Shown here piece by piece: positions 163 to 38,745 of a stretch of 39,950 bases of DNA. The notes beneath the pieces were generated by a model that saw only the letters and a list, made by a program, of their open reading frames with translations, ran no database searches and had not been told where the DNA came from. The stretch spans positions 1-39,950 of the forward strand of contig JANWLL010000119.1 of the NCBI GenBank assembly GCA_025450855.1, in the 5' to 3' direction. The translations under genes were made by a program, and so were the position numbers. Position 1 is the stretch's first letter, and every line of letters begins with the position of its first letter. Source of the DNA: Vulcanimicrobiia bacterium (GTDB taxonomy: Bacteria > Vulcanimicrobiota > Vulcanimicrobiia > Eremiobacterales > Eremiobacteraceae).

Positions 163-195
163 GGGAGCGGTCGAGATTCATCTCGACCGCCGCGG
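163..195 (+). repeat. Dispersed palindromic element, copy 1
   Basis: GGGAGCGGTCGAGATTCATCTCGACCGCCGCGG; perfect 11-bp arms GCGGTCGAGAT/ATCTCGACCGC with 2-nt loop (167-190). Confidence 0.85.
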
Positions 196-327
196 ACTCG
201 CTTGAGCACGAAGATTAGGAAGAACCGCTAAGCCTTACCGATCAGCGGGGGAGGACGAATCGGGCTACGTCCACATCGGCAAAGTACTTAACCGCGGCAA
301 ATAGCGTCTGCGGGAACGGCCGTCGTT

Positions 328-543
328 TCATGACTTGGTTTCAGGGTCCTCATCCGTCTTGGCATCATACGTCAGCAGCTTGGGCTTGATCGGGAAGACC
401 GCCCATCCGAGAACGAGCCATCCTAGGGCGAGCACGGCATGTGCCCATTGTGGCTGCGTCAGCACATAGATGATTCCGAAGATTCCGACCAGATAAGCGT
501 AGCCGCCTATGATGAACCGAAGCACCAGCACCGCGACGTTCAT
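328..543 (-). CDS. Small (71 aa) membrane protein, unknown function
   Basis: ORF with hydrophobic segments MNVAVLVLRFIIGGYAYLVGIFGIIYVL...VLALGWLVLGWAVF; promoter-like sequence immediately upstream. Confidence 0.65.
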   Translation of the reverse strand: MNVAVLVLRFIIGGYAYLVGIFGIIYVLTQPQWAHAVLALGWLVLGWAVFPIKPKLLTYDAKTDEDPETKS

Positions 544-552
544 GGTGATTCA

Positions 553-581
553 AGTATATAGCAAGGTCGCCGTTGAGTTAA
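553..581 (-). promoter_or_regulatory. Candidate sigma70-type promoter for the 71-aa gene
   Basis: Minus strand TTAACT (581-576) - 17 nt - TATACT (558-553); only 9 nt between the -10 box and ATG (543). Confidence 0.45.
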
Positions 582-627
582 GTGCATCCTTACCGAAATT
601 CGCTAGGCATGATCTTCTATTGAATGA

Positions 628-660
628 CCGCGGCCGTCGAGATGAATCTCGACCGCTCCC
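628..660 (-). repeat. Dispersed palindromic element, copy 2 (inverted relative to copy 1)
   Basis: CCGCGGCCGTCGAGATGAATCTCGACCGCTCCC; 32/33 identical to the reverse complement of 163-195. Confidence 0.85.
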
Positions 661-685
661 GGTCTTCTCTAGCGTATGTCGATCA

Positions 686-1858
686 TTACGCTAGTGCTTG
701 TTTTAGGTCGGCGATAAGGTCGGACGGATGTTCAAGGCCGACCGAGACGCGGAGTAAATCGACGGGCGTCGTCGTGCCAGGGCCCTCGATCGACGCGCGA
801 TGCTCGATGAGGCTTTCGGATCCGCCGAAGCTCGTCGCGCGCGTGAACAGGCGGCACCGCGCCGCTACGGCCATCGCTGCCGCCTCGCCGCCGCGGACCT
901 GGAACGAGAGCAGGCCGCCGAAGCCGCTCATCTGCCGCGCGGCGACCGCGTGGCCAGACGCGCTTTCAAGGCCCGGATAGTGAACCGCGCTGACCTTCGG
1001 GTGCGAAGCGAGAAACCGCGCTAGCTCCAATGCCGACGTCGATTGGGCTCGGACGCGGAGCGCCAGGGTGCGCATGCCGCGCAGAGCGAGCCAGCAATCG
1101 AACGGTGACGGTACGGCGCCGAGCGCGTGCTGGAGATGGCGCAGCCGCTCGAATCTCGCCCCTTCTTCTCTCGCGATCACGGCGCCGCCCAACACGTCGC
1201 TATGGCCGCCGATGTACTTCGTCGTCGCATGCACGACGAAATCCGCGCCGTCGGACAGCGGGCGAGAAAGAACCGGTGTCGCTAGGGTATTGTCGCAGAC
1301 GCAGATCGCTCCGCCGGCATGCGCGATGTCGACAAGCGCGGCGATGTCGGCGACCTTCAGCATCGGGTTCGAGGGCGTCTCCACCCAGATCATCCGCGTG
1401 CTCGGCCGGACCGCGGCGCGCACGGCATCGAGATCGCCGATCTCGACGTACGTCGCCTCAAGGCCCCACGGCGTCAGGCAATCGTTTAAAATGACGCGCG
1501 TACCATAGTATGCGTCGCCTGGGAGGATGACGTGCTCGCCGCGCGCGAGCGTCTGCATGATCGTCGCCGTCGCCGCCGATCCCGACGAGAACGCGGCAGC
1601 GGCGGCGCCGCCCTCCATGACGGCGAGCGCCGTCTCGAGCGAACCGCGCGACGGGTTCGCCTTCCTCTGATAGCTGTAGCCGCGCGAGTAGCCGCCGTCG
1701 GCGTCGCGCTCGAAGATCGTCGATAAATGGATCGACGGCGATACCGCACCGGTCGCCGGCTCGGGCGTAGCCCCGGCATGGACGGCGAGGGTTTCGATGT
1801 GGAGCGAGCTATCTTCGCTCATGAAGGCGACTGAGCCGAGCTTCTCTCGGCATACCAC
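686..1858 (-). CDS. Cys/Met metabolism PLP-dependent enzyme (cystathionine gamma-synthase/lyase-like); alternative start at 1822
   Basis: Trans-sulfuration family signatures: LAVHAGATPEPATGAVSPSIHLSTIF, DAYYGTRVI, WVETPSNPML, VVHATTKYIGGHSDVLGG. Confidence 0.9.
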   Translation of the reverse strand: MVCREKLGSVAFMSEDSSLHIETLAVHAGATPEPATGAVSPSIHLSTIFERDADGGYSRGYSYQRKANPSRGSLETALAVMEGGAAAAAFSSGSAATATIMQTLARGEHVILPGDAYYGTRVILNDCLTPWGLEATYVEIGDLDAVRAAVRPSTRMIWVETPSNPMLKVADIAALVDIAHAGGAICVCDNTLATPVLSRPLSDGADFVVHATTKYIGGHSDVLGGAVIAREEGARFERLRHLQHALGAVPSPFDCWLALRGMRTLALRVRAQSTSALELARFLASHPKVSAVHYPGLESASGHAVAARQMSGFGGLLSFQVRGGEAAAMAVAARCRLFTRATSFGGSESLIEHRASIEGPGTTTPVDLLRVSVGLEHPSDLIADLKQALA

Positions 1859-1874
1859 ATGAGTCCCACGAGGC

Positions 1875-1910
1875 CAGGCCGCGGCGGTCGAGCTAAAGCT
1901 CGACCGCTAC
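1875..1910 (-). repeat. Dispersed palindromic element, copy 3
   Basis: CAGGCCGCGGCGGTCGAGCTAAAGCTCGACCGCTAC; arms CGGTCGAGCT/AGCTCGACCG, loop AA. Confidence 0.88.
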
Positions 1911-1922
1911 AGGTGCGGATCA

Positions 1923-3401
1923 TTAGTACTTGATCTCGAGACCGAACGACGGCGTCTTCGTCTGGGTGTTGTTCCATAGATAACGCTCGCCGTAGAACAG
2001 CTGCAAGCGTTCGCTCAGGCGCAGATCGCCGTACAGGTCGAGCGTCGGATGTTTCGGATCGTAGATACGCGCGTCGATCCCGATCGGGCTGCCGAACGGC
2101 CGGAATAGCGCCGCGATCCCGAGCTTGGAATACTCGACGCCTGCCCCGAGTTGGAGATCCTTCGAGTTGCGGTCGAGCAAGAAGTTGTACGTCGTCGAAT
2201 AGCCGAGATCGTTCGCTCCGACCGTGAGATGCGTCTTCGCGCCGGGCAACAGGACGAGATTCATGTCGCTGGCGGGTCCGCCGCCGTGCGTGCCCCACGT
2301 CTCGCGCACCTGCGCTTGGACGAGCGGCTGCGAGAACAGCCCGCCGCCCGACTGGAAGTGCGGCTGCGGCACCGGAGTCGCGCCGGAAGGAACCGGCTGC
2401 GGAGCGCCCGTCGTCGCCGATCCGGGTTGCGCTACGGCCGTCGAGAACTGTCCGAGGATCGCGTCGGCTTTCGCCGTCACCGACTGCAGGTTCGCGACCG
2501 TCTGCTTCAGCTGCGATTCCGTCTTCGGGTCGCCGGTGATGCCCTCGAGCTCGGTCGCCATCGCTTTGAGCTTCGCCGTCGCGCCCTCGACGTTTTGCAC
2601 GGTGCCGATAAGGCTGTCGTGAAGCAACGGGTCCTGCGCGATCGAGGCGATGCCCGCCATCGTCTTGTTCAGATTGTCCGCCGTCGACGAGAGCCGGTCG
2701 ACGAGCTTCTGGATGCGCGGGCGGTCCTCGCTGACGAGCCCGTTGAGATTGCCCGTCAGCGCGGTCATGTTGCCGCCGGTCGTCTGGATCGTCTCGTTGA
2801 GGGCCGTGACGGTCGACTGCATCTCGGCGGTCAGCGTCGTAAGACTCGAGTCGGCGTCTTGGACGAGGCTGTCCGTATGCGTCGCGACGAGCGAGAATTT
2901 TTTCGCGAGCGCCGGGAGCTCGCGGTTGACGACCGCCATCGTCTTCGAGAAGTTCTTCAATTGCTCTTGACCGGCGCTGAGGAGATCGGTCAGCGTCGGC
3001 GGCAGCGTGCCCCAGGGCTGCTGATCCGGCGGCAGCGGTTGCTGCGGCATGATCATGGCGACCTGGCGCTGCAGCGGAGGCTCGATCGTCAGCGTCGTCG
3101 CGCCCGTGATCGTGATGGCGACGACGAACAGCGAGTCGCGATAGATCGTGACGCCGTTGTTGATCGTGCACGTCACCTCGACGGTCTGATCCGGCAAAAG
3201 ATCGACCGTCGTCACCTCTCCGACCTGGACGCCGGACACGAGCACCGTGCTGCCCTCCTGCAGACCGCCGACGTCGTGAAAACGGATGCCGATATTGTAC
3301 CCATTGTGCGCGAGTGCGTAGTTCGTGATGAAATAGTACGCTGCGAACACGCCCGCAAGCGCCAAAAGGGTGAAAATGCCGACGCGCGCCTGCGTACTCA
3401 C
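1923..3401 (-). CDS. mlaD: MlaD/MCE-family protein with long helical region and C-terminal beta-rich (barrel-like) region
   Basis: N-terminal TM plus MCE domain (IGIRFHDVGGLQEGSTVLVSGVQVGEVTTVDLLPD...VTCTI), long helical stretch, C-terminal strand pattern ending FGLEIKY; next to mlaF and mlaE. Confidence 0.88.
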   Translation of the reverse strand: MSTQARVGIFTLLALAGVFAAYYFITNYALAHNGYNIGIRFHDVGGLQEGSTVLVSGVQVGEVTTVDLLPDQTVEVTCTINNGVTIYRDSLFVVAITITGATTLTIEPPLQRQVAMIMPQQPLPPDQQPWGTLPPTLTDLLSAGQEQLKNFSKTMAVVNRELPALAKKFSLVATHTDSLVQDADSSLTTLTAEMQSTVTALNETIQTTGGNMTALTGNLNGLVSEDRPRIQKLVDRLSSTADNLNKTMAGIASIAQDPLLHDSLIGTVQNVEGATAKLKAMATELEGITGDPKTESQLKQTVANLQSVTAKADAILGQFSTAVAQPGSATTGAPQPVPSGATPVPQPHFQSGGGLFSQPLVQAQVRETWGTHGGGPASDMNLVLLPGAKTHLTVGANDLGYSTTYNFLLDRNSKDLQLGAGVEYSKLGIAALFRPFGSPIGIDARIYDPKHPTLDLYGDLRLSERLQLFYGERYLWNNTQTKTPSFGLEIKY

Positions 3402-3425
3402 GCCGACGTGCTCATCGAAAGCCGG

Positions 3426-4226
3426 CTAAACGGGGATCGGACCAACGTCGCTCCCTTGCAAGAACTGTTGGACGATCGGGTTCGGCGACTGGCGCACTTT
3501 CGAGACCGAGCCGTACTCGATGATCGTCCCCTCGAAAAGCAACGCGATCTCGTCGGCGATCGCGAAGACCGACGGCAAGTCGTGCGAGATGACGAGGCAC
3601 GTCACTTTCAGCTTGTGCTGGATGTTCTTGATCGTCTCGGTGATGATGTTCGTCATGATCGGATCCAGACCGGTCGTCGGTTCGTCGAACATGATGATTT
3701 CAGGTTCGTTCACGATGGCGCGGGCAAACCCCGCTCGCTTTTGCATGCCTCCGGAAAGCTCGCCGGGCAGCCTATCGCCTTCTCCATCGAGCCCGACCGA
3801 TTCGAGCGCGGACTTGACGCGCTCGTTGATCTCGTCGTCCTCGAGATCGGTGAGCTCGTACAACGGAAAGGCGACGTTGTCTGCGACCGTCATAGAGTCG
3901 AAGAGCGCGTTGTACTGGAACGCGAACCCGATCCGTTTACGGATCTCGAGGATCTCCGTCTCCGGCAGCCTGCTGAGCTCCGAGCCGAGCGTGAAAACGC
4001 AGCCGCGGGTCGGCCGGCGCAATCCGTTCGCGACGCGCAAGATCGTCGACTTGCCGGCGCCCGACAGCCCGATGATGCACGTCGTGTGGCCGCGAATGCA
4101 ATCGAGCGAACAATCCGACAGCACGATCTTCTCGCCATACCGAAGCTCGATGGACTGAAGCCTGATCGCGACGTCCGGCGGAGGCGGCGACGGCTCGAGC
4201 TCTCGCGACGGTTTTTCGTCGATCAT
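3426..4226 (-). CDS. mlaF: ABC transporter ATP-binding protein, MlaF type
   Basis: Walker A GLSGAGKST, signature LSGGMQKRAGFARA, Walker B IIMFDEPTTGLDP; ATG 4226 overlaps the mlaE stop by 4 nt. Confidence 0.92.
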   Translation of the reverse strand: MIDEKPSRELEPSPPPPDVAIRLQSIELRYGEKIVLSDCSLDCIRGHTTCIIGLSGAGKSTILRVANGLRRPTRGCVFTLGSELSRLPETEILEIRKRIGFAFQYNALFDSMTVADNVAFPLYELTDLEDDEINERVKSALESVGLDGEGDRLPGELSGGMQKRAGFARAIVNEPEIIMFDEPTTGLDPIMTNIITETIKNIQHKLKVTCLVISHDLPSVFAIADEIALLFEGTIIEYGSVSKVRQSPNPIVQQFLQGSDVGPIPV

Positions 4227-5005
4227 GGGAACAGCACGAACGACAGCGCGAAGTTGAAGACGAAGATCAGGATGATCCCGGTGACGACCGCATGCGTCGT
4301 CACTCGGCCGACCCCTTCGGCTCCGCCTTCCGCGCGGAAACCTTCGTAACCGGCGACGAGGGCGACGAGGACGCCGAACACCGCAGCCTTCTCGAGGCCT
4401 TTGTAGAAATCGGAGAAGATCAACGTCGTCTGCACGGAGTGCCAATACGTGTACGGCGACATGTGCACCCGCAGCCACGCCATGTAATAGCCGCCATAGA
4501 CGCCGACGATATCCGCGAAGACAGTGAGCATCGGGACCGTGATGAACGACGCCAGCAACCGCGGAGTGACGAGAACCTTCACCGCGCTGACGCCCATCGA
4601 CTGGAGCGCTTCGACTTGCTCGGTGACGACCATCGAGCCGAGCGAGGCCGTGATGGCTGCGCCTGCTCGGCCCGCGAAGACGATGCCGGTCAGCATCGGC
4701 CCGAGCTCGCGCACCTCGCCGAAGGCGACGCTTCCACCGACGAACTGCGACAGTCCATAGCTGACCGCTTGCGAGGCCGCTTCGAGCGAGATGACCAGCC
4801 CCGTGAAAAGCGACGTCAACACGACGATCGTCCACGACTCGACGCCGAGGAAGTACGCCTGACGGATCACCTCCGAAGGTCTGAAGTTGAGCGTGACGAC
4901 GTTGCGGCACACCTCGCCGAACATCGTCGCGAGCCCGCCCGCGTATTCGACGAAGCGGTTGACGCCCGAGAACACGCCCCGCCGGCGCGAAGCCGCGACG
5001 CTCAT
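4223..5005 (-). CDS. mlaE: MlaE-family ABC permease
   Basis: MlaE motifs: ELGPMLTGIVFAGRAGAAITASLGSMVVTEQVEALQSMGV. Confidence 0.92.
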   Translation of the reverse strand: MSVAASRRRGVFSGVNRFVEYAGGLATMFGEVCRNVVTLNFRPSEVIRQAYFLGVESWTIVVLTSLFTGLVISLEAASQAVSYGLSQFVGGSVAFGEVRELGPMLTGIVFAGRAGAAITASLGSMVVTEQVEALQSMGVSAVKVLVTPRLLASFITVPMLTVFADIVGVYGGYYMAWLRVHMSPYTYWHSVQTTLIFSDFYKGLEKAAVFGVLVALVAGYEGFRAEGGAEGVGRVTTHAVVTGIILIFVFNFALSFVLFP

Positions 5006-5328
5006 CGCGACGTACCTCCGCCGGCGTCACCGAGGGTGTCGAGCACTCGGCGCGCTGCGTCCAGCCGCCGCTGCGCCGCGCCCCGCTCAGCCTGCGCGTT
5101 ATATTGGCGCTGATACAGATCGTCCAAACGGCGGTCGAGGTCGGCGAGATGGGCGACCGATTCTCGAGCGACGGCGGCGAAATAGCGGTGCATCTCCTTC
5201 TTCAACGAGGCGAACGCCTCGGCGTCACCCGCCTGCGAGCGCGCGCGATCGCGCGATCGCACGAGCGCCTTGTCGGTGACGTGGAACGCTTCGAGCAATG
5301 CGAGCAGCTCGTCGGCTTGGGCATTCAC
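5002..5328 (-). CDS. 108-aa charged helical/coiled-coil protein, unknown function
   Basis: ORF overlaps mlaE and rph by 4 nt on each side; predicted highly helical and charged. Confidence 0.7.
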
Positions 5329-6122
5329 GACGACGCGCCTTTCGGCGCAGTGGTCGACGCCGCAGGCTTGCGTCCGAAAGCAGGCACCTCCACACGGGAT
5401 AGCGTCTCGCGCTGGAGCGCGATTAGGCTATCGATGCCGGCCCGCGCGAATCCCAGCAAACGGTCGAGCTCCTGACGCGAAAACGGCAGCCCTTCCGCGG
5501 TGCCCTGCAGCTCGACGAACTTGCCCTCGCCGGTCATGACGACGTTCATATCGACTTGTGCCTGCGAATCCTCCGCATACGAGAGGTCGAGGACGGGCCG
5601 TCCGCCGACGAGCCCCACCGAAACGGCCGCTAGCCAGTCGATGACCGGCCAGCCGCGAAGCTTGTTCTCCTGGCGCAAGTGCACGAGCGAGAGGCAAAGC
5701 GCGACGAACGCGCCGGTGATCGCCGCCGTCCGCGTGCCGCCGTCCGCTTGGATGACGTCGCAATCGATGGTGATCGTCCGCTCTCCGAGCGCCTTCGTGT
5801 CGACGACGGAGCGCAGACTGCGGCCGATGAGCCGCTGGATCTCATGCGTCCGGCCGCCGATACGCCCCTGCGCCGCCTCGCGCGGCGTCCGCTGGGCGGT
5901 CGACCGCGGCAGCAGCGAATACTCGGCGGTCACCCACCCGACCCCTTGGCCCTTGAGGAACGGCGGAACGCGATCCTCGACGGTCGCAGCGCACAGCACT
6001 TTCGTCTCACCGAACGCGATGAGGAGCGACCCTTCGGCGAAACGGAGGAAGTCGGGCTGCAGCGTCACCGGCCGCAGCGCGTCGTCGGCTCGTCCGTCTG
6101 CCCGCGCGTTAGGGTCTCGCAC
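5325..6122 (-). CDS. rph: Ribonuclease PH
   Basis: RNase PH motifs: [75 protein letters not shown]. Confidence 0.95.
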
Positions 6123-6125
6123 GCG

Positions 6126-7955
<1,830 letters not shown>

Positions 7956-7980
7956 GTCTACAAAACTTGCCTTTCGCCGA

Positions 7981-8613
7981 TCACGACGATCCGTCGAGCG
8001 CGCTTCGGCCGCGCACGCGAGCGATCTTCAGACGCTCGGCGATGAGCACGGCGCGCAGCTTCTCGAGCGCGGCGTCGAAATCGTCGTTGACGATGAGATA
8101 TTCGTAGTTGCCGATCGCGTCCGCCTCGCGCGCGGCGATCGCGACGCGCGCCTCGATGGTCTCCGGCGATTCGGTACGTCGCTGCTCGAGGCGCTCTCGC
8201 AGGATCGCCGCAGACGGAACTGTCAGGAACACGAGCACCGCTTGCGGGTAGATGATCTTGATCGACATCGCGCCGTTGACTTCCGGCTTCATGACGAGAT
8301 CTCGTCCCGCCGCGAGCGCATCCTCGATCGGCTTGCGCGGCGTGCCGTAGAGGTGGCCGGCGTAATCGCGCGTCTCGAGGAACTCGCCCGACGCTCTGCG
8401 GCGCTCGAATTCGGTCCGCTCGAGGAACCAGTAATGCTGACCTTCGACCTCACCCGGACGCGATGGCCGCGTCGTCGCCGAGACGGAGTACGCGAGCTTC
8501 GGCTCGGCCGCGCGCAGCGCGTCGACGAGGCTGTCTTTCCCGGACCCCGAGGGCCCGGAGACCACGAGCAATACGGGTTCGCGTGGGACCGGCGCAAGGT
8601 TGTCGGCTGGCAA
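7981..8613 (-). CDS. gmk: Guanylate kinase (apparent TTG start)
   Basis: P-loop VVSGPSGSGKDSL, SVSATTRPSRPGEVEGQHYWFL, GEFLETRDYAGHLYGTP. Confidence 0.93.
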   Translation of the reverse strand: MPADNLAPVPREPVLLVVSGPSGSGKDSLVDALRAAEPKLAYSVSATTRPSRPGEVEGQHYWFLERTEFERRRASGEFLETRDYAGHLYGTPRKPIEDALAAGRDLVMKPEVNGAMSIKIIYPQAVLVFLTVPSAAILRERLEQRRTESPETIEARVAIAAREADAIGNYEYLIVNDDFDAALEKLRAVLIAERLKIARVRGRSALDGSS

Positions 8614-8648
8614 TCCGTCCTCGTCAACGCTCGGCCGTCAGGTGGTCC

Positions 8649-10361: not shown

Positions 10362-11446
10362 CGGTCCGATAGGGTTCGGTCATCGACTTGCGCCAGTTCG
10401 ACGAACATCGCGTCGCCGAACGAATAGAATCTGTATCCGTTCGCGATCGCATCGGCGTATGCGGCGAGCACGCGCTCGCGCCCGGCGAAGGCGCTGACGA
10501 GCATGAGCAGCGTCGAACGCGGCAGATGGAAGTTCGTCAGCAGCGCGTCGGCGGTCCGGAAGCGATACGGCGGATAGATGAATATCGACGTCTCTCGTTC
10601 GCCGGACTCGATGGCGCCGTCCGCGCGCGCCGCTGCCTCGAGCGCACGCAAGACGGTCGTGCCGACCGCGATGACGCGTTTTCCCGCGGAACGCGTCGCT
10701 TCTATGGCTGCTGCCGCGGCCGCGGGGATCTCGTAGCGTTCGGCGTGCATGTGATGCGCCCGGACGTCGTCGGCTTTGACCGGGCGGAACGTGCCTGCGC
10801 CGACGTGAAGAGTGAGCACCGTCCATCCGATGCCCCGTCCGCGAAGCGTCTCGATCGTCTCCTCGGTGAAATGAAGACCCGCGGTCGGCGCCGCTACCGA
10901 GCCCTCTGTCGCGGCGTAGACCGTCTGGTAGCGCTCGTCGGCGTCCGCCGGCGGAGCGTGGATGTACGGCGGCAGCGGCAGATCGCCGAAGCGCGCCATC
11001 GCTTCGGAGACGCCGATACCGTAAAAGCGGACGATGCGGTTGCCGCCGGCCGCCCAGTCGACGATCTCGATGCCGCACTCGGGGGCGAGCGTGAGGCGGT
11101 CGCCCTTGCGGATCCTTTTGCCGGGGCGCGCCATCGCTTCCCAGCACTCCGGCTGCGCGGCCGGATGGAGCAGGAGCACCTCGGCTCGACCACCTTCGCG
11201 GCGGCGAGGGTGGAATCGCGCCCGCAGCACTTTCGCGTCGTTCGCCACCAGGAGATCGCCCGGCTCGACGACCTCGGCGATGTCGGCGAACTTGACGTGA
11301 CGGATAGGCCCGGTCCGAGGCAGCACGAGGAGCCGCGATGCGTCGCGCCGATCGGCGGGTCGCTGCGCTACGAGCGCTTCGGGGAGGATGTAGTCGAAAG
11401 CATCCGTGCGGAATTCTGCAGGCGTCTTTTCGTCATCCATCCTCAT
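10358..11446 (-). CDS. queA: S-adenosylmethionine:tRNA ribosyltransferase-isomerase
   Basis: FDYILPEALVAQRPADRRDASRLLVL, SVAAPTAGLHFTEETI, TLHVGAGTFRPVKADD, TNFHLPRSTLLMLVSAFAGRE. Confidence 0.96.
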   Translation of the reverse strand: MRMDDEKTPAEFRTDAFDYILPEALVAQRPADRRDASRLLVLPRTGPIRHVKFADIAEVVEPGDLLVANDAKVLRARFHPRRREGGRAEVLLLHPAAQPECWEAMARPGKRIRKGDRLTLAPECGIEIVDWAAGGNRIVRFYGIGVSEAMARFGDLPLPPYIHAPPADADERYQTVYAATEGSVAAPTAGLHFTEETIETLRGRGIGWTVLTLHVGAGTFRPVKADDVRAHHMHAERYEIPAAAAAAIEATRSAGKRVIAVGTTVLRALEAAARADGAIESGERETSIFIYPPYRFRTADALLTNFHLPRSTLLMLVSAFAGRERVLAAYADAIANGYRFYSFGDAMFVELAQVDDRTLSDR

Positions 11447-11774: not shown

Positions 11775-11778
11775 CGCG

Positions 11779-24126: not shown

Positions 24127-24130
<4 letters not shown>

Positions 24131-28078: not shown

Positions 28079-28114
28079 GTAGCGGTCGAGCTTCAGCTCG
28101 ACCGGAGACGACCT
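28079..28114 (+). repeat. Dispersed palindromic element, copy 4 (left half of composite element)
   Basis: GTAGCGGTCGAGCTTCAGCTCGACCGGAGACGACCT; 34/36 identical to copy 7. Confidence 0.88.
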
Positions 28115-28140
28115 TCCATTTTACGGTTCGACGCCCAGGT

Positions 28141-28176
28141 CAGGCCGCGGCGGTCGAGCTGAAGCTCGACCGCTAC
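28141..28176 (-). repeat. Dispersed palindromic element, copy 5 (right half of composite element)
   Basis: CAGGCCGCGGCGGTCGAGCTGAAGCTCGACCGCTAC; 35/36 identical to copy 3; its last 26 nt are the exact reverse complement of 28079-28104. Confidence 0.88.
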
Positions 28177-28188
28177 GCAATCATCAGG

Positions 28189-30822
28189 CTAGAGAGTGGC
28201 GCGGCGCTCGCTGGCGAGTTCGAGCGAACCTCTGAGCTCTTCGAGCCGCCGGCGTTCACCCTCGACGACCTCGGCCGGCGCTTTGCGCACGAAACCATCG
28301 GAAGCGAGCTTCCGCTCGATGACGTCGATCTCGCGGTCGGTCTTCTCTATCTCCTTGTCGAGTGACGTGCGCTCGCGCTCGATGACCGCGGCGTCGACCG
28401 GCAGGAACACTTGCGCCGTGCCGAGGCGTCTCGACAACGCGCTCTCCGGCTTCGGGAACTCGCCGTCGCCGATCGCCCGCACAGCGCTTGCGCGGCCGAG
28501 ACGCTCGACGATCTCGGTCTCCCGCTGGAGCAAGCCGATAAGTTCGGGCGACGCGCCGTCGACGAAGACGTCACGGAGTTCGCGGTACGGAAGCTTCGGT
28601 ACGCCGCGCAGGGCGAGCACCGCGTCGACGAACCCGAGCACCTGCGCCATGTCGGAGCGAGCGCCTCTGTCGATCCAGGCGGCAGCGCCGTCCGGCCACG
28701 CGGACTTGCCGATGCGCGGCACTTCGTGCGGCAGCCGCTGCCACAGCTCTTCGGTGATGAACGGCATGATCGGATGAAGCAGCTGGAGCGCGCCGCTCAG
28801 CACGCGGCCGAGGATGCAAGCGCGCGTCGGTGCGCGGTCCTTCGCGATCTCGATATAGACGTCGCACACCTCGTTCCAGACGAAGGTGCGGATCGCGTCC
28901 GACGCTTCGGAGAAGTCGAAGTCGCGGTAAGCGGCGTCGACTCGCTGGACCGTTTGCGCGAGCGCGTCTAAGATGTAGCGGTCGGCAAGCGTCAGTTGGA
29001 CGTCAGGGCACGAGAGCGGTTCGCGCGCCTCGCCGAGCTCGGGAAAAGTCGTCAGGGCGAAGCGGACCGCTTGCCACAGCTTGTTGCAGAACTTGCGCGC
29101 GTCGTCGCAGCGGCCGACGGCGAAGCGGACGTCTTGTCCGGCGTGCATCTGATTGACGATGCCGAACCGCGTCGCGTCGGCGCCGTAATCGCGGACGAGG
29201 TCGAGCGGATCGAGACCGGTACCGAGCGACTTGCTCATGCGCCGGCCCTGTTCATCAAGGATGACGGGCGTGACGAGGACGGTCGAGAACGGCTCGCGAC
29301 CCATGAAATGGATGCCGAGCATGACCATGCGCGAAACCCAGAGGAAGATGATCTCGCGCGCGGTGACGAGCACCTGCGTCGGATACCAGACCTCGAGCTC
29401 CTTCGTCTTCTCAGGCCAGCCGAGGATCGAGAACGGCCATAGGCCCGAGGAGAACCACGTGTCGAGCGTGTCCTCGTCGCGGCGCAGGTCCGTGCGGTCG
29501 CACGTCGCGCACTTCTCCGGCTCGGCCTGCGCGACCGTCGCGTGATCGTCGCCGCAGTACCAGACCGGCAGCCGGTGGCCCCACCAGATTTGGCGCGATA
29601 TATTCCAATCGCGGATGCCCTCGAGCCAATCTTCGTATGTCTTCTGGTAGCGCTCGGGGACAAAACGGACGCGACCCTCGCGCGACGCGGCGAGCGCCGG
29701 CTCCGCGAGCGGTTTCATCTTGACGAACCATTGCAGCGACAGGAGCGGCTCGATCGGCGTGTCGCACCGATAGCAGATCCCGATCGACATCGAGTGTGCC
29801 TCTTCGCGGACGAGCAGACCGCGTTCGCGAAGGCGCCGGGCGGCGAGCTCGCGCGCGTCGAAGCGGTCGAGCCCCGCGAATTCGGGCTCGACGTCGCCGG
29901 TGAGCTTCGCATCGAAGCCGATGACGGACGGCTGCGGCAAACCGCGGCGTTCGCCGATCTCGTTGTCGGTGAAATCGTGGCCCGGCGTGATCTTGAGCGC
30001 GCCGGTGCCGAACTCGCGCTCGACGGCGGCGTCCGCGATGACGGGGATTGGCGCCGGCGACAGCGGGCGCATGACGTGCTTGCCGATGAGCGGCTTGTAG
30101 CGATCGTCGTCGGGGTGGACGGCGACCGCGACGTCGGCGAAGATCGTCTCTGGGCGCGTCGTCGCGATGAAGGCGTCGGGAGCGCCGTCGACGCCGGCGT
30201 AGCGGACGAAATAGAGCGTGCCCTGACGCTCCTCCCGTTCGACTTCGCTATCAGATAACGTCGACGCGCAACGCGGGCACCAGTTGATGAGTCGCGTGCC
30301 CCGGTAGATGAGCCCCTCGGCGTATAGGTCGACGAACACCTTGAGGACGGCGCGACTCATGCCCTCGTCCATCGTGAAGCGGTCGCGATCCCAATCGGGT
30401 CCGAAGCCGAGCGCGCGGAATTGTTGGTAGAGGACGTCGCCGTATTCGCGCCGCCACTCCCATACGCGAGCGATGAACGCGTCGCGGCCGAGGTCGTGCC
30501 GCGTCTTGCCTTCCTTCGCGAGCTCTTTCTCGACGACGTTCTGCGTCGCGATCGCCGCGTGATCTTGACCGGGCAGCCAGACGGCGTTCCGGCCGCGCAT
30601 GCGGTTCCAGCGGACGAGGATATCTTGCGGCGTGTACGTCGAGCCGTGCCCCATGTGGGCGCGGCCGGTGATGTTCGGCGGAGGCATGGCGATGACGAAC
30701 GGCTTGAGATCGGGATCCGGCTCGGCGTGGAAGGCTTTCTCAGCTTCCCAGATCTCGTACCATCGTCGTTCGATCGCGGCCGGATCGTACTTGTCGAGCA
30801 TCGGCGCGCGCAGCTCGGTCAT
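28189..30822 (-). CDS. valS: Valyl-tRNA synthetase
   Basis: PPPNITGRAHMGHG (HIGH box), GRRMSKSLGTGLDPLDLV (KMSKS), WFVKMKPLAEPAL, C-terminal coiled coil. Confidence 0.97.
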   Translation of the reverse strand: MTELRAPMLDKYDPAAIERRWYEIWEAEKAFHAEPDPDLKPFVIAMPPPNITGRAHMGHGSTYTPQDILVRWNRMRGRNAVWLPGQDHAAIATQNVVEKELAKEGKTRHDLGRDAFIARVWEWRREYGDVLYQQFRALGFGPDWDRDRFTMDEGMSRAVLKVFVDLYAEGLIYRGTRLINWCPRCASTLSDSEVEREERQGTLYFVRYAGVDGAPDAFIATTRPETIFADVAVAVHPDDDRYKPLIGKHVMRPLSPAPIPVIADAAVEREFGTGALKITPGHDFTDNEIGERRGLPQPSVIGFDAKLTGDVEPEFAGLDRFDARELAARRLRERGLLVREEAHSMSIGICYRCDTPIEPLLSLQWFVKMKPLAEPALAASREGRVRFVPERYQKTYEDWLEGIRDWNISRQIWWGHRLPVWYCGDDHATVAQAEPEKCATCDRTDLRRDEDTLDTWFSSGLWPFSILGWPEKTKELEVWYPTQVLVTAREIIFLWVSRMVMLGIHFMGREPFSTVLVTPVILDEQGRRMSKSLGTGLDPLDLVRDYGADATRFGIVNQMHAGQDVRFAVGRCDDARKFCNKLWQAVRFALTTFPELGEAREPLSCPDVQLTLADRYILDALAQTVQRVDAAYRDFDFSEASDAIRTFVWNEVCDVYIEIAKDRAPTRACILGRVLSGALQLLHPIMPFITEELWQRLPHEVPRIGKSAWPDGAAAWIDRGARSDMAQVLGFVDAVLALRGVPKLPYRELRDVFVDGASPELIGLLQRETEIVERLGRASAVRAIGDGEFPKPESALSRRLGTAQVFLPVDAAVIERERTSLDKEIEKTDREIDVIERKLASDGFVRKAPAEVVEGERRRLEELRGSLELASERRATL

Positions 30823-30875
30823 GGCCCCGAAGTTCGGTCGAGACCGCGCGCACCCTGCGCGGCGCCTGGAGGCGC

Positions 30876-32498
30876 TTAGCTACACGGGTTGCTCCCACAG
30901 TCGGTCCAGCCGACGATGGTGTAGCTCGAAAGGCTCGGATAGAACGGCGGCGAGTTCGTCTGGAAGCGGGAATCCCACGTGTAGCTGTCCGCCCAGCCGT
31001 TCACCAGGTGGCCGTTGTTCGAATTGAAGACGCCGAGCGGGCTGATATAGTTGTTCACCATGCTGCCGTACACGAGGAGCGGGCCTTTCTTCGGGATGTT
31101 GCCCGGACTTTGCCCTTGGTCCGTCTCGAAGGTCCCCTGTTTCGTGTTCTGGTGGGCGTAGTCGTACGAGTTGCCCGCGAAGACCGCGGCCTCGATCGTG
31201 AGGTTCGCCGGCGCGTTTGACGCGACTTCGACGTTGTGACCGATGATGCCGAGCATGTCCGTGCTCTGACAGCCGCAGCTCTGCGGGTCGTGCTCGTAGT
31301 TGATGTTGCCGCTGATCGTGATATTGTTCTCTGCCGAGTTCTCGTTGTCGTCGTTCGTCGCGATGGTCTGCTGGCCGTTGACCGTGCCTGAGAGCGAGGT
31401 CACGTCGCCGTTGACGAAGATCGCGCCGTTCGCGCTCGCGCCGGAGACGCTCGATCCCGCACCCGAGGGGACGCCGGAGTACGTGGACGTCTTGCCGTTC
31501 TCGACGACCGTCGTCGTGTTCGCGTAGTAGTCGACGGTGACGGTCACTTGAGATGTGATCGGGGTGCTGCCCGTGCCGGGTTTGAAGGTCATCGTCTCGG
31601 TCGTCGCAGTCGACGAGAACGATAGGTTCGTACTGCCGTTCACGTAGATGCCGGTGACGAGCGCGCCGGTGTTCGTCGAATTCGCAGCGTTGTCGTTGAC
31701 GTAGACGTCATGCGTCGACTCCGACGGCATCGACGAGCCGTTCCCGGCAATGCCGGTGAGCGCTTCGGTCGCTATGATCGAACCCGCCGCGTCGGGCGGG
31801 AAACTGATCGGCTGGTTCGTCTGCTTGAACCACGACGACCCATGCGAGTCGACGGAGGCCCAGTCGTTTTGCGAATTCGGCGGTTGGTTTCCGCCGTTCG
31901 GCTGTGCCCACGCGAGCGTTCCTTCGACGGTCACTTTGTCCTCGAAGATCGAAGCGAGCCCGTTCTGCCACCAGATGTTCACCGGATCGCTGGCGCCGCC
32001 GCCGAGGTAGACCCGGCCGTTGAACTGCATGAGTCCTGAGACGAAGTAGTTTCCCGGCGCGTTCGCCCAGCCGGCATAGTTGTAGTCCGCGAAAGAGTCC
32101 TCGAGCGACAGGGCCTCGACGTATCGCGTGTAGCCCTCGGACGAAAGCCCCTCGGACTGCATGAGGTACGTCCGCCGGTTGTTGACGACGTTATGGTTCA
32201 AGATCGTCGCGATGTACGACGGCTTCAGCCCGTTCGGATCGGCGGGGAAGTAGTATTGAGGCGGCGCGACCGCGAGGCCGGGGCTCGACAGCTCTTCTTC
32301 CGCGACGAGCTGCTGGATGCCGGCATCCGCAAGGTAGAGCGCCCGGTTGTCGAAGCCCGTGTACGCGACGTTGCGCAGCTCTTGGGTCACCAGCGTCGCA
32401 AGCCCGCCGACGAGAAGGAGCATGACGACGAGGAGCAAGAGCGCCATCGGCAACGCGAACCCTCGCTTTCGGTTTTCTCTTGCACGGACGTTCAACAT
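30876..32498 (-). CDS. PilX-like / DUF4900-like large minor pilin or pilus-assembly protein
   Basis: NRKRGFALPMALLLLVVMLLLVGGLATLVTQELRN...ALYLADAGIQQLVAEEE; long Asn/Ser/Thr/Gly-rich secreted region. Confidence 0.75.
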   Translation of the reverse strand: MLNVRARENRKRGFALPMALLLLVVMLLLVGGLATLVTQELRNVAYTGFDNRALYLADAGIQQLVAEEELSSPGLAVAPPQYYFPADPNGLKPSYIATILNHNVVNNRRTYLMQSEGLSSEGYTRYVEALSLEDSFADYNYAGWANAPGNYFVSGLMQFNGRVYLGGGASDPVNIWWQNGLASIFEDKVTVEGTLAWAQPNGGNQPPNSQNDWASVDSHGSSWFKQTNQPISFPPDAAGSIIATEALTGIAGNGSSMPSESTHDVYVNDNAANSTNTGALVTGIYVNGSTNLSFSSTATTETMTFKPGTGSTPITSQVTVTVDYYANTTTVVENGKTSTYSGVPSGAGSSVSGASANGAIFVNGDVTSLSGTVNGQQTIATNDDNENSAENNITISGNINYEHDPQSCGCQSTDMLGIIGHNVEVASNAPANLTIEAAVFAGNSYDYAHQNTKQGTFETDQGQSPGNIPKKGPLLVYGSMVNNYISPLGVFNSNNGHLVNGWADSYTWDSRFQTNSPPFYPSLSSYTIVGWTDCGSNPCS

Positions 32499-32508
32499 GC
32501 TCGTAACC

Positions 32509-33132
32509 TCATTGATAGTAGCTGATGAAGATGCGTGAGTTCAACGTGAACTGCGCGGCGGTCACCCCCGCTGCGCTGTTCTGCGCCATGCCGATCGGCG
32601 GAGCCGTCGTGATCTGGATATCGAAGATCGACTGCGTCACGGGCATGACCGCGAACGATTTGACGTCGCGCCCGACCGTCGTGGACGCCGTGAGAGTGTT
32701 GTTCGCATCGAACGTGTTGATGACGAGATCGGGATAGAGGTGACCCGGCGGCGGCGTCGCGGTGAGCTGGATGGTCACCGTCTGGGTGGTTATCTTTCGG
32801 TAATCCGCATCGGCAGGCAGACCCGCCGCCTCGGTGAACGTCACGCTGTTCGCCACAGGAGGTGTCGGATTGCCGTTCGGCGTCGGATAACTCACAGGCG
32901 GGGGCGCATTCGGATCGTTCGGATTGACCATCGCTTGACGGAGCGCTTGCGTCACGCGACCCATCGCCTGGCGTGCGTCGCTCTGCGCGTCGACGTCGGA
33001 CGACGTCTTCGCATAGTGGCCGAAGAGCTGGAGGTAGAGCGCCGTCGTCAGCGAGAGGATGACGCCGATGACCGCGGTTGCGACCATGACTTCGACGAGG
33101 CTCAAGCCCCGATAATGCCTGTGCGCTTTCAC
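32509..33132 (-). CDS. PilW-like minor prepilin (GTG start)
   Basis: VKAHRHYRGLSLVEVMVATAVIGVILSLTTALYLQLF: type III prepilin signal G^LSLVE; overlaps upstream gene by 4 nt (GTGA). Confidence 0.75.
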   Translation of the reverse strand: MKAHRHYRGLSLVEVMVATAVIGVILSLTTALYLQLFGHYAKTSSDVDAQSDARQAMGRVTQALRQAMVNPNDPNAPPPVSYPTPNGNPTPPVANSVTFTEAAGLPADADYRKITTQTVTIQLTATPPPGHLYPDLVINTFDANNTLTASTTVGRDVKSFAVMPVTQSIFDIQITTAPPIGMAQNSAAGVTAAQFTLNSRIFISYYQ

Positions 33133-33689
33133 GACTTCGGCGCTTTCTTCAGGCCGGTGACGACGTACGTGTCCCAACCACCGTGGAGCGTTTGCGTCTC
33201 GATCCAGACGGTGAGATCGGCCGTTTGGTTGTCTTGCGAGCAGGTACCGCCGGCGCCGGTGCCCCCTTTGCAATGGATGTCGGCACGCCACTGGAAGTTG
33301 TACGGTTCTGGGATCGTGCCGCCCGACTCGAGCGTCAAATTCTGGCACCCCGCGTGCCACCCGCCTCCGTTGTACGGACCGGCATCGGCATAAGCGGGAT
33401 ATGCGACGCCGCACGGATCGGGTTCCGGCGGTGCCGCGGCGCCCCAACAGTTCGTCACGCTGCAGCCCAAGCCGGAGAATTCCGGATTCCAGAACTGCGG
33501 ATCGCGCCGCATCTGCTCGAGGTAGTAATTCGCGATCTCGATGGACTCGGTGTGCTTCGCCGCGGCATACTGGCCTTGCGTCGCACCCATCATCGCGCCC
33601 GACCATGCGAGGAACCCGATCGTCAAGATGACGATCGCCACCAACGCTTCGAGCAGCATCGTGCCGCGTCGTCGCCGTGTAACGATGAT
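33129..33689 (-). CDS. PilV-like minor prepilin; non-canonical start proposed (ATC 33689 or 33686), first ATG at 33659 is inside the signal peptide
   Basis: In-frame IIVTRRRRG^TMLLEALVAIVILTIGFLAW; AAGGAG at 33700-33695 placed 5-8 nt before the ATC codons. Confidence 0.6.
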   Translation of the reverse strand: MIVTRRRRGTMLLEALVAIVILTIGFLAWSGAMMGATQGQYAAAKHTESIEIANYYLEQMRRDPQFWNPEFSGLGCSVTNCWGAAAPPEPDPCGVAYPAYADAGPYNGGGWHAGCQNLTLESGGTIPEPYNFQWRADIHCKGGTGAGGTCSQDNQTADLTVWIETQTLHGGWDTYVVTGLKKAPKS

Positions 33690-33733
33690 GAACGCTCCTT
33701 CATGAGTGCGATAGGATATGTTCCTATGAGACG

Positions 33734-33762
33734 ATTATGCGCAGGGTTTTGTGACAGTACAA
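33734..33762 (-). promoter_or_regulatory. Candidate sigma70-type promoter for the minor-pilin operon
   Basis: Minus strand TTGTAC (33762-33757) - 17 nt - CATAAT (33739-33734). Confidence 0.45.
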
Positions 33763-33906
33763 GCGGTGCGCGCAAGAAGTGATGGCGCTCATAGCCGATG
33801 ACGTCATAGAACATGACGTGCGTCGCACTCGCACACGATCACATATGTCGCACGACACAGGCGCGTTAGGTCGGAAGGATTTCTCTTCTATATCGCGATT
33901 TGCGCG

Positions 33907-34869
33907 TCAGCCTGACGAGATAAGCCGCGCGAACGTGTCGGCGTCGACGTTGCCGCCGCTGATGATGATACCGATGCGTGATCCGGCCGTGCCGGCTTTG
34001 CCCGCGAACGCGGCTGCGACCGGCACCGCGCCCGCTGGTTCGACGACGATCTTCGCGCGCCCGAAAAGCACGCGCATCGCCCCGCGGATCTGGTCGTCGC
34101 TCACCGTGACGAAGTCGTCGACGAGTTTGTCGGCGATCGGCCACGTGATGTCGCCGGGCGACGTCGTGCGCAATCCCTCGGCGATCGTGTCGGGCTCCGG
34201 TATCGCGACCGGTCTACGCGCGCGGCGGGATCTCGACCAGTCGTCGCCCGCCTCGGGCTCGGCGCCGACGACGCGGATGTCCGGACGCAAAGCTTTTGCC
34301 ACCGTCGCACAGCCGGAGATGAGGCCGCCTCCGCCGACGGGGGTCACGAGCACATCAAGATCGGGGACTTCGTCGAGCAATTCGAGCGCGGCCGTGCCTT
34401 GTCCGGCGATGACATCGGGATGGTCGAACGGCGGGATGATCGTGCCGCCTCGCTCGGCCTTGATCTGTTCGGCGATCGCCTCGCGGCCTTCACCTCGCCC
34501 GTACGTGACCACGTCGGCGCCGTAGCCGCGAGTCGCGTCGAGCTTGACGCGCGATGCGTAATCGGGCATGACGATCGTCGCGCGGATGCCGAGGAGCTTC
34601 GCCGCGAGGGCCACGCCTTGCGCGTGATTGCCTGAAGAGAACGCGATGACGCCGCGCGCGCGCGCTTCATCGGCGACCCGGCTGAGGGCGTTGTATGCGC
34701 CGCGGAACTTGAACGCGCCGGCCCGTTGGAAGCTTTCGCATTTGAGGAAGAGCGAGCAGCCGGCGATGGCGTCGAGAGCGGCGGAGGTGACGACGGGTGT
34801 GCGGTGGGCGACGCCTTCGATCCGCTTCGCGGCGGCGCGAACGTCGTCAATGGATATCATCGTCAGCAT
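33907..34869 (-). CDS. Threonine/serine dehydratase (PLP fold type II)
   Basis: LKCESFQRAGAFKFRGAYNAL (PLP Lys), AFSSGNHAQGVALAA, TPVGGGGLISG. Confidence 0.93.
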   Translation of the reverse strand: MLTMISIDDVRAAAKRIEGVAHRTPVVTSAALDAIAGCSLFLKCESFQRAGAFKFRGAYNALSRVADEARARGVIAFSSGNHAQGVALAAKLLGIRATIVMPDYASRVKLDATRGYGADVVTYGRGEGREAIAEQIKAERGGTIIPPFDHPDVIAGQGTAALELLDEVPDLDVLVTPVGGGGLISGCATVAKALRPDIRVVGAEPEAGDDWSRSRRARRPVAIPEPDTIAEGLRTTSPGDITWPIADKLVDDFVTVSDDQIRGAMRVLFGRAKIVVEPAGAVPVAAAFAGKAGTAGSRIGIIISGGNVDADTFARLISSG

Positions 34870-34877
34870 TTCATTTT

Positions 34878-34910
34878 GGAGCGGTCGACCTTTACGGTCG
34901 ACCGCCGCGG
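34878..34910 (+). repeat. Dispersed palindromic element, copy 6 (variant stem)
   Basis: GGAGCGGTCGACCTTTACGGTCGACCGCCGCGG; arms GCGGTCGACC/GGTCGACCGC with 5-nt loop (34881-34905). Confidence 0.8.
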
Positions 34911-34961
34911 TCGTGTCTGAGTGCGAGAACAGATGCGGGAGCGTTTGGCAACGTCAGGCGC

Positions 34962-36230
<1,269 letters not shown>

Positions 36231-36254
36231 GCGGTCTATTCCTTTTCGCGCTGC

Positions 36255-36875
36255 TTACGGAGTCGGTTTGGCCGGCGCGGTCTCGCGCGTCTGGCGGTTC
36301 ATGACCACGTCGCAGATCCCGTATGCGACGGCTTCGGGCGCCGTCATGTGGTAGTCGCGCTCCATGTCGCGCTCGATCTTCTCGAGCGGTTGGCCCGTCG
36401 TCTCGACGTATATGTTTGCGAGTTGCCGACGCGTGTTGATGAGATCCTTGGCGTAGATTTCGAGGTCGGTCGCCTGCCCGCCCACCTGCTGGACCCACGG
36501 CTGGTGAATGAGTATCTTCGAGTAGGGCAGCGCAAAACGCTTGCCCTTCGCACCGCCGGTGAGAAGGATCGATGCTGCGCTCGCAGCCAGTCCCGCGCAG
36601 AGGGTCGCGACGTCGGGTCGCACGAGCGACATGGTGTCGTAGATAGCAAGCCCGGCGGTCACGCTCCCGCCGGGACTATTGATGTACATCTCGATGTCTT
36701 TATCGGCATCTTCCTTTTCCAGAAACAGGAGTTGGGCGATGACGAGATTGGCCAGATTGTCGTCGATCGGGCCTGTGACGAAGACGATGCGCTCCTTCAG
36801 CAGCCGAGAGAATATGTCGAAGGCGCGCTCTCCGCGAGCGGTCTGCTCGACCACCATCGGTACGAGATGTCCCAT
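36255..36875 (-). CDS. clpP: ATP-dependent Clp protease proteolytic subunit ClpP
   Basis: [77 protein letters not shown]. Confidence 0.96.
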
Positions 36876-36915
36876 TTAGCGTGAACCTTTCCGGCGCGTG
36901 TGAGCCTTGTGGACC

Positions 36916-38235
36916 TTACGACTGTCCCGCCAGGCTACCCTGCGCGGTACGGATATCTGCCTGCGTGAGCAAGAATTCGATCGTCTTCTGCTTGCGAACG
37001 GAGTCGATGAGCGGGCCGAAACCAGTGTTGCGCCGCACGACGTCGATCATGGCGTCGCGGCTTCGTCCATATGAGCGGGCGAGGTGGTCGAGTTCGCTTT
37101 CGAGCTCTTTCGTCGTCACATCGATGCCTTCGGCGCGCGCGATCTCCTCGAGGATCAGCGCGGTCTTCACTCGCCGCTCTGCTTCCGTGCGATACTCGGC
37201 GGTGAGACCTTGTTCGTCGACACCTTTTGCGGCGAGATACTCGCCCCACGAGCGCCCGATGCTCTGCATATAGTTCTTCGCGTCGGCGAGCAGACTCTCG
37301 ACTTCGCGGTCGACGAGCACGGCCGGCAACGGGAAATCGTGACGCGAAAGCAGTTCGGTGATGAGCTGCTTCTGCACCGCTTCTCGCGCCTGGGCGTCGC
37401 CGACCGCTTCGAGCCGCTTGCGGATGTCGCTGCGCAACGCGTCGACCGATTCGTGCTCGGATACTTTCTTGACGAAGACCTCGTCGAGATCGGGCAACAC
37501 GGGTTGGCGCACGTCGTGGATCGTCACGTCGAAGTTCGCTTCTTTGCCGGCGAGCGTCTCGGCGTGGTAGTGCGGCGGGAAGGTGACTTTGAGCGTCCGC
37601 TTGTCGCCCGGCTTCGCGCCGTAGAGCTGCTCGGCGAATCCAGGGACGAACTTCTCGCTGTTCACCTCGGTCGTGTGATCGGTCGCGCTGCCGCCTTCGA
37701 AAGGTTCACCGTCGATCGTGCCGACGTAGTCCATCGTGACGACGTCGCCGGCCTCGATGCCGCGGTCGACGACCGGCTCGAGCTCGGCTGCGCGTTTGCG
37801 CAGGGCCTGGAGGCTGCGTTCGACTTCTTCTTCCGTCACGCTGACGGGATGACGCTCGAGGGCAAGGCCTCGATAGTCGGCGAGCGTGATGTCGGGGCGG
37901 ACGCTCACTTTCGCCTTGATACGCAGCGATTTGCCGTCGTCGAGGCGCTCGAGATCGATGTGCGGACGGTCGACGGGATCGAGGTTATGCTCTTTGAGGG
38001 CGCGCGAGTACGCGTCGGGCACGACGTCCTCGACCGCTTGATGATCGATCGCTTCGGTGCCGACGTGGCGCTCGAAGATCGGGCGCGGAACGTGGCCCTG
38101 CCGAAAACCTGGCAGGCGATATTGTTTGACGAGCTTGCGAAACGCGCGCTCGCGGGCGGCTTCGAAGTCGGGCGCCGAGACCTCGATGTCGAGTTCGACT
38201 TCGGTCGGCGCGAGTTTACGGACCGTGGCTGTCAC
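36916..38235 (-). CDS. tig: Trigger factor (GTG start)
   Basis: VTATVRKLAPTEVELDIEVSAPDFEAARERAFRKLVKQYRLPGFRQGHVPRPIF; PPIase domain; upstream in-frame ATG overlaps tRNA-Gly. Confidence 0.95.
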   Translation of the reverse strand: MTATVRKLAPTEVELDIEVSAPDFEAARERAFRKLVKQYRLPGFRQGHVPRPIFERHVGTEAIDHQAVEDVVPDAYSRALKEHNLDPVDRPHIDLERLDDGKSLRIKAKVSVRPDITLADYRGLALERHPVSVTEEEVERSLQALRKRAAELEPVVDRGIEAGDVVTMDYVGTIDGEPFEGGSATDHTTEVNSEKFVPGFAEQLYGAKPGDKRTLKVTFPPHYHAETLAGKEANFDVTIHDVRQPVLPDLDEVFVKKVSEHESVDALRSDIRKRLEAVGDAQAREAVQKQLITELLSRHDFPLPAVLVDREVESLLADAKNYMQSIGRSWGEYLAAKGVDEQGLTAEYRTEAERRVKTALILEEIARAEGIDVTTKELESELDHLARSYGRSRDAMIDVVRRNTGFGPLIDSVRKQKTIEFLLTQADIRTAQGSLAGQS

Positions 38236-38274
38236 TGCGCTTCGAAGCGAACCTCCGACTGGGTGCGGGTCTGG

Positions 38275-38346
38275 AGCGGAAGACGAGATTCGAACTCGCG
38301 ACCCTCGCCTTGGCAAGGCGATGCTCTACCGCTGAGCTACTTCCGC
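38275..38346 (-). tRNA. tRNA-Gly (GCC)
   Basis: GCGGAAGTAGCTCAGCGGTAGAGCATCGCCTTGCCAAGGCGAGGGTCGCGAGTTCGAATCTCGTCTTCCGCT; complete cloverleaf, anticodon GCC. Confidence 0.95.
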
Positions 38347-38450
38347 GCTGCATGCGCGAGCGTCGGCTTGCGCCGACGTCAGTCTCATGTTATGCGGGTG
38401 GACCTGTTTTCCTTGCGGGGAATCGCCGTGTCGCGGCGAACGCCGCACAC

Positions 38451-38585
38451 ATGACGGGCGGCGTGATGTTGGGCACGGTCTTGGTGATCGGCGGCGCCTT
38501 GTATGTCGCAGTCTTCGCTTGGGTCACGCAAGCGCGCGTGCGCGCGCTCGGCCCGGACAAATACCCCGAGGATCACGGTCACTGA
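38451..38585 (+). CDS. 44-aa putative single-TM protein between two tRNA genes
   Basis: MTGGVMLGTVLVIGGALYVAVFAWVTQARVRALGPDKYPEDHGH; plausible TM then charged tail; start uncertain. Confidence 0.4.
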   Translation: MTGGVMLGTVLVIGGALYVAVFAWVTQARVRALGPDKYPEDHGH

Positions 38586-38613
38586 ATATTTCGGCCGTTT
38601 CGTTTGATCGGTG

Positions 38614-38695
38614 TGGGCAAGAAAGGACTCGAACCTTCACGGGTCGCCCCACTGGAACCTAAATCCAGCGCGTCTGCCAGTTCCGCCACTTGCCC
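38614..38695 (-). tRNA. tRNA-Leu (TAG)
   Basis: GGGCAAG/CTTGCCC acceptor, anticodon loop TTTAGGT between CTGGA and TCCAG, variable arm, TTCGAGT T-loop. Confidence 0.93.
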
Positions 38696-38709
38696 ATCGC
38701 ACTTTTGTT

Positions 38710-38745
38710 GTAGCGGTCGAGCTTTAGCTCGACCGAAGACGACCT
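38710..38745 (+). repeat. Dispersed palindromic element, copy 7
   Basis: GTAGCGGTCGAGCTTTAGCTCGACCGAAGACGACCT; shares the distinct right flank AGACGACCT with copy 4. Confidence 0.88.

Follow-up and report, generated by a model that had tools for sequence, protein, structure and literature searches.

What are the seven short palindromes that recur along a 39,950-nucleotide contig of a Vulcanimicrobiia bacterium (GenBank JANWLL010000119.1, contig C119 of the host assembly; this whole stretch is hereafter called the window)? The original prediction, made from the letters of the window, had described a dispersed family of seven copies, and all seven were recovered in place, each of them (7/7) outside called genes. 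We conclude that the repeats are almost certainly repetitive extragenic palindromic sequences (REPs) belonging to a REP/RAYT system, in which the RAYT is a REP-associated tyrosine transposase. RAYTs are domesticated Y1 enzymes, and their substrates have been described with a near-universal GTAG guide. Taken as a whole, the sequence data make it highly probable that these are REPs mobilized by two resident RAYTs; a change of guide from GTAG to GGAG after duplication is a less certain part of this reading. The several-hundred-copy family is ordinary in kind, consisting of REPs and REPINs (REP doublets forming hairpins) with their RAYTs.

The host assembly is a 2.34-Mb draft (178 contigs, completeness 81%); the sole congener genome compared with it, that of sister species G001, is 97% complete. 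The original prediction had proposed a genome-wide search against a control, a search of related genomes, a comparison of orientation with gene ends, and a search for a RAYT; results are given here and below. A strict pattern, AGCGGTCGA-N4-14-TCGACCG, matched the host genome 197 times in forward and 189 times in reverse orientation (386 matches) vs. 0+0 for the reversed pattern that served as control, and G001 yielded 278+325 matches (603). Perfect-arm palindromes numbered 73 in 348 kb, vs. 0 in ∼1.04 Mb simulated to match the dinucleotide frequencies. The family is one short, dispersed, high-copy palindrome, as expected of REPs. Individual copies were called with a scored scanner, and the statistics on subfamilies and positions come from 0.54 Mb of host and 0.43 Mb of G001 sequence, partly contigs known beforehand to contain copies; copy densities from this sample are therefore biased, with contrasts less affected.

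Exactly two Y1_Tnp genes were found in the host assembly, RAYT1 (L001:1417-1893, minus strand) and RAYT2 (L002:1420-1893, minus strand). Their products are 62% identical and score above the cut-off for NCBIfam NF047646 (REP-associated tyrosine transposase) and PF01797. The DH-x-H motif and Tyr115 align in the RAYTs, as in Y1 (HuH, single-tyrosine) enzymes, and the RAYT family profile matched Escherichia coli TnpA-REP (4ER8) at 3e-12; a phmmer query with RAYT1 alone missed 4ER8. In both species each gene lies between inverted cognate REPs, the arrangement of a REPtron: RAYT1 has two inverted GGGAG copies per side in the host and its orthologue three inverted GGAG copies per side in G001, and RAYT2 has inverted GTAG copies on its flanks in the host and GTAG flanks in G001. 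The four host and G001 RAYTs formed one clade in the tree, with a RAYT1/RAYT2 duplication that predates the species split (support 98/96). More widely, RAYTs flanked by their own inverted REPs were documented in 10 of the 14 genomes of this bacterial family, within a phylum sample of only 149 genomes. The earlier suggestion of a REP/BIME-type (bacterial interspersed mosaic element) or MITE-type (miniature inverted-repeat transposable element) family was borne out in its first half by guide, palindrome, placement, pairs, copy number and RAYTs. As to its second half, nothing indicates a MITE mobilized by a DDE transposase, although a DDE parent was not searched for. The unit consists of a guide and a hairpin and lies beside Y1 genes, and no obvious target-site duplication was seen at four empty orthologous sites (see below), whose junctions are diverged.

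The repeats share the architecture G[TG]AG, then CGGTCGA-apex-TCGACCG, then a tail, with a perfect hairpin of 9–10 bp that has a TTYA loop in nearly all copies. Folded as single-stranded DNA, individual copies had z values of −4.4 to −4.9, and the pair at 28079-28176 had −8.8. The compensatory stem variation reported in the original prediction is complementary and genuine but shallow, since it involves only two base pairs at the apex and a small number of subtypes. Five complementary combinations occur at stem pairs 8 and 9, and the lower stem is near-invariant partly because the scan required its sequence. Three subfamilies were distinguished: TGTAG with a GC/GC apex, GGGAG with GA/TC, and TGGAG with CC/GG. 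Counting these three main apices, GGAG copies carried GA/TC 91 times, CC/GG 29 times and GC/GC 12 times, vs. 3, 0, and 71 for GTAG copies (pooled Fisher p = 2e-38 for GGAG with GA or CC vs. GTAG with GC, a generous value because copies in tandem arrays are not independent). The REP guide has been published as GT[AG]G (PMC6006769), with degeneracy given as GYAG, GYRG, GTRG, or GTMG (PMC3733652). Here both hairpin and 5′ foot guide are present, with GTAG in one subfamily, and the GGAG subfamilies deviate at position 2; we filed the repeats as REPs with a variant guide. Neither GGAG nor GAAG guides were found in the literature searched, whose coverage was incomplete and gives no proof of novelty, and the papers that a full-text search combining GGAG and REP terms brought up were all on unrelated subjects. 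As far as checked, REPs with GGAG or GAAG guides on the flanks of RAYTs represent a new variant.

Downstream of the palindrome, copies carry either an A tail (CCGCGGYCT) or a B tail (RAGACGACCT), both of which finish with a conserved CT 8–10 nt 3′ of the palindrome, past which conservation drops. These correspond to the two right-flank subtypes noticed earlier; both exist, but they are mostly two halves of one tail-to-tail pair, since 18 of 26 tails-facing pairs combined A with B, one combined A with A, and none B with B. Spacing within these pairs was 28–31 nt in 22/26. Adjacent copies were arranged in tandem or with tails facing (heads facing, 0), and singletons made up about half of the clusters or more. 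The tails-facing pairs are inverted REP doublets with a short spacer, as in REPINs and BIMEs.

We picture these REPs as non-autonomous mobile palindromes, probably mobilized as folded single-stranded DNA by RAYT1 and RAYT2. By analogy with characterized RAYTs, the enzyme would bind the extruded hairpin and guide, cut at the CT, and rejoin; REP and REPIN units would spread in this way and survive mainly at gene 3′ ends, where harm is small. After a RAYT duplication in the genus, the guide would have switched from GTAG to GGAG, RAYT1 (His104) being taken to serve the GGGAG, GA/TC copies and RAYT2 (Arg104) the TGTAG, GC/GC copies. The evidence for this step is correlation, which suggests that the guide genuinely switched through RAYT duplication; we regard this as probable, if not strongly so. 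In characterized systems, cleavage at CT is reported to track positions 3 and 4 of the guide, and cleavage at CA positions 2 and 4 (PMC8266576). Because the REPs here keep AG at positions 3/4 and carry CT, position 2 should be free to change, and the switch would be tolerable since the positions that CT cleavage is proposed to follow are unchanged.

The competing account that survives best holds that GGAG arose by mutational drift in the GTAG family, both RAYTs acting on all copies, with no guide switch; we consider it a serious but less probable explanation. It draws on the lower stem CGGTCGA that both subfamilies have in common, on the GC apex borne by 12 of 144 GGAG copies that have one of the three main apices, and on published work with group 3 RAYTs, whose binding tolerates guide changes and among which the CT substrates of the Marinomonas enzyme (Mb) are strongly selected only at positions 3/4 (PMC8266576). 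Drift accommodates less readily the tight combination of head, apex and base preceding the head, the retention by each RAYT of its own head type in two species, and the observation that the Stenotrophomonas enzyme (Sm) barely cleaves a GCAG guide (PMC8266576). It also has to contend with G003, which belongs to another genus and in which GAAG is nearly fixed (409 matches to a pattern open at guide position 2, with GAAG in 71/79 sampled copies). Guides elsewhere in the family are GTAG in most RAYT-bearing genomes and GTGG in G002; under a similar open pattern G009 was nearly all GTAG.

A candidate determinant of a guide switch lies in the region of E. coli TnpA-REP that recognizes the guide, comprising W94, Q95, E100, H101, and R104, of which W94, Q95, and R104 are well conserved (PMC6006769). 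At alignment position 104 (E. coli numbering) both RAYT1 orthologues have His, and Arg occupies this position in E. coli, in 12 other RAYTs of the family, and in four more distant RAYTs of the phylum. Still more distant Y1 proteins, in G113 and G145, have Glu and Gln there, with no recognizable guide-tagged hairpins adjoining. The G003 RAYT has Asn at position 101. These alignments are compatible with a fuller history in which a duplicated RAYT exchanged GTAG for GGAG as its guide, replaced Arg104 by His in the segment that reads the guide, and gave rise to a REP population of its own, and in which G003 separately acquired GAAG with Asn101; we put its chances somewhat short of even. That Arg104His would be a causal determinant of the guide change is doubtful.

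Several observations weigh against these proposals. RAYT1 and RAYT2 differ at ∼38% of positions, and Arg104His is therefore one candidate among many; the GAAG-associated RAYT of G003 retains Arg104, and in G009 the RAYT, which has Arg104, likewise has a GGAG head on its flank, although the other copies of that genome are almost all GTAG. In G001, the GTAG cluster next to RAYT2 includes one GGAG copy at its edge. The CC/GG GGAG subfamily is without a RAYT of its own, and genus g4 carries GGAG-type repeats without a detectable RAYT. As for mobility, no transposition event or excision product was seen, and most orthologous sites are common to both species, which leaves recent mobility unsupported. 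If a guide switch did occur, it could reveal how RAYT enzymes change target, and specificity in RAYT/REP systems would be encoded in an evolvable way at guide position 2, with natural orthogonal pairs within one cell. In any case RAYT1 and RAYT2 offer a minimal natural comparison for the study of REP specificity and of the origin of new REP families: their REP populations have the lower stem in common and differ in the apex pair, one flanking base, and position 2 of the guide.

Related repeats were also seen in other genomes of the family. G004, in genus g4, had 159 matches (L101-L104, L107, L108) with a shorter apex, A-TTYA-T, and mostly GGAG, some GTAG heads. No Y1_Tnp gene was found in any of the three genus g4 genomes, whose repeats are possibly REPs left after RAYT loss. 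G012, of the same genus as G003, had 193 GAAG-type REP matches; its sole RAYT lies between copies of another REP, of GTAG type, making the GAAG repeats a candidate for another orphan REP population. Palindromes with CTAG-like heads adjoin a second RAYT of G010 (L038, G010:C4); as a frame change splits this gene, they were not considered further.

Placement of the repeats was assessed against genes called by a simple codon-usage caller. The family had been described as strictly intergenic, which is true of the seven window copies and, genome-wide, mostly so (113/121 non-edge clusters). Relative to spacer length, clusters were enriched in convergent spacers (host, p = 1e-9; G001, p = 8e-11); divergent spacers were depleted, and in unidirectional spacers copies lay a median of 26–30 nt past the upstream gene. 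Placement mostly between genes and near 3′ ends, including convergent spacers, matches the pattern published for REPs (PMC3733652). The same short distances to gene 3′ ends, the convergent spacers, and the strong hairpins could be read another way, as marks of selected RNA elements, i.e., transcribed 3′-end hairpins acting as terminators, mRNA stabilizers, or small RNA targets, with mobility secondary. E. coli REPs have been reported to have RNA roles. Such an explanation is nonetheless improbable here, as 3′-end placement is equally expected from purifying selection against insertions in genes and promoters, and as the RAYT-matched guides, A/B doublets, tail CT and empty sites are left unexplained. 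The hairpins are followed by no T-tract, an Rfam search returned two tRNAs only, with no match to the REPs, and the part of the window scanned for terminators (27.9–39.0 kb) contained no terminator-like site among its copies, in keeping with the earlier view that they are not ordinary terminators. The selected hairpin in RNA or single-stranded DNA proposed for this family is accordingly best understood as single-stranded DNA folded for the RAYT; a role in RNA may exist as well but is not needed.

Elsewhere in the sampled contigs, REPs at L003:13215, L006:7154, and L022:2837 directly adjoin a hairpin resembling a terminator, GCCGAGCGAAGCTCGGC, which at L022 has a T-run; this suggests insertion beside terminators. 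A few REPs or REP pairs were also seen within called genes (L004:1754-1824 and L097:5752-5822; L013:10332; L065:13331), and one of the pairs occupies equivalent positions in the two species; these may be in-frame insertions or gene-calling errors.

Comparison of collinear host and G001 DNA, much of it 88–90% identical, showed that 11 of 13 comparable host clusters and 12 of 14 in G001 were occupied in the other species. Copy number differed at about half of the shared sites, and four orthologous sites were empty in one species. By this comparison, turnover of the REPs is slow and their expansion local. Binding partners have been reported for E. coli REPs, and the dispersed, palindromic, intergenic character of the repeats would also suit fixed chromosomal binding sites (e.g., for a nucleoid protein or gyrase), but the empty sites, the copy-number changes, the association with RAYTs, and a stem sequence that is wholly different between genera while the guide-hairpin architecture is kept make immobile sites very improbable.

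Among known systems, the REP/RAYT system described here resembles the Sm and Mb REPtrons (group 3 TnpA-REP; PMC8266576, PMC3733652) in its foot tetranucleotide on a perfect hairpin, inverted REPs around the RAYT, CT beside the hairpin, 3′-end placement, and a RAYT without the E. coli C-terminal tail; the Mb loop, TTTA, fits the TTYA loops here. It differs in that one of two resident subfamilies is GGAG, with a His104 RAYT, and in a host from a bacterial family far from those of Sm and Mb. With E. coli REP/BIME elements (Y, Z1, Z2) and TnpA-REP/RayT (4ER8) it shares guide plus hairpin, an HuH/Y1 enzyme, pairs of two flank types, and W94, Q95, and E100 in both RAYTs, whereas the stem is without a bulge, Arg replaces His at 101 in both RAYTs, RAYT1 has His104, and the C-terminal tail is missing. 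Pseudomonas fluorescens SBW25 REPINs (PMC3116915) likewise form long hairpins from inverted REP doublets, with clusters beside RAYTs and several REP groups, each with its own RAYT; unlike them, about half of the clusters here or more are singletons, and the doublet halves have different tails.

Within the window, copies 1 (163-195, plus) and 2 (628-660, minus) both read GGAG-GATTCATC when oriented by head, with GA/TC apices and A tails. Copy 1 has its GGAG guide at 164-167, hairpin at 168-189, and tail CCGCGG; copy 2, also with a GGAG guide, has its hairpin at 634-655 with one mismatch at the stem foot. Copies 3, 4, 5, and 7 read GTAG-GCTTYAGC in the same orientation. Copy 3 (1875-1910, minus; GTAG guide 1907-1910; hairpin 1885-1906, GC/GC apex; A tail CCGCGGCCT) is missing from the orthologous site in G001, an empty site. 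Copies 4 (28079-28114, plus; GTAG guide 28079-28082; hairpin 28083-28104; B tail GAGACGACCT) and 5 (28141-28176, minus; GTAG guide 28173-28176; hairpin 28151-28172; A tail CCGCGGCCT) are the left and right halves of a REPIN-like doublet with tails facing (28079-28176; fold z −8.76), and the orthologous G001 spacer contains three REPs. Copy 6 (34878-34910, plus; GGAG guide 34878-34881; hairpin 34882-34904 with a CC/GG apex and 5-nt loop; A tail CCGCGG) reads GGAG-CCTTTACGG when oriented by head. In the orthologous G001 spacer a CC/GG-type REP lies ∼50 bp off in the opposite orientation (L095:12085-12107), reflecting either an independent insertion into the same spacer or an inversion. Copy 7 (38710-38745, plus; GTAG guide 38710-38713; hairpin 38714-38735; B tail AAGACGACCT) sits 3′ of a tRNA-Leu gene (38613-38695, minus).

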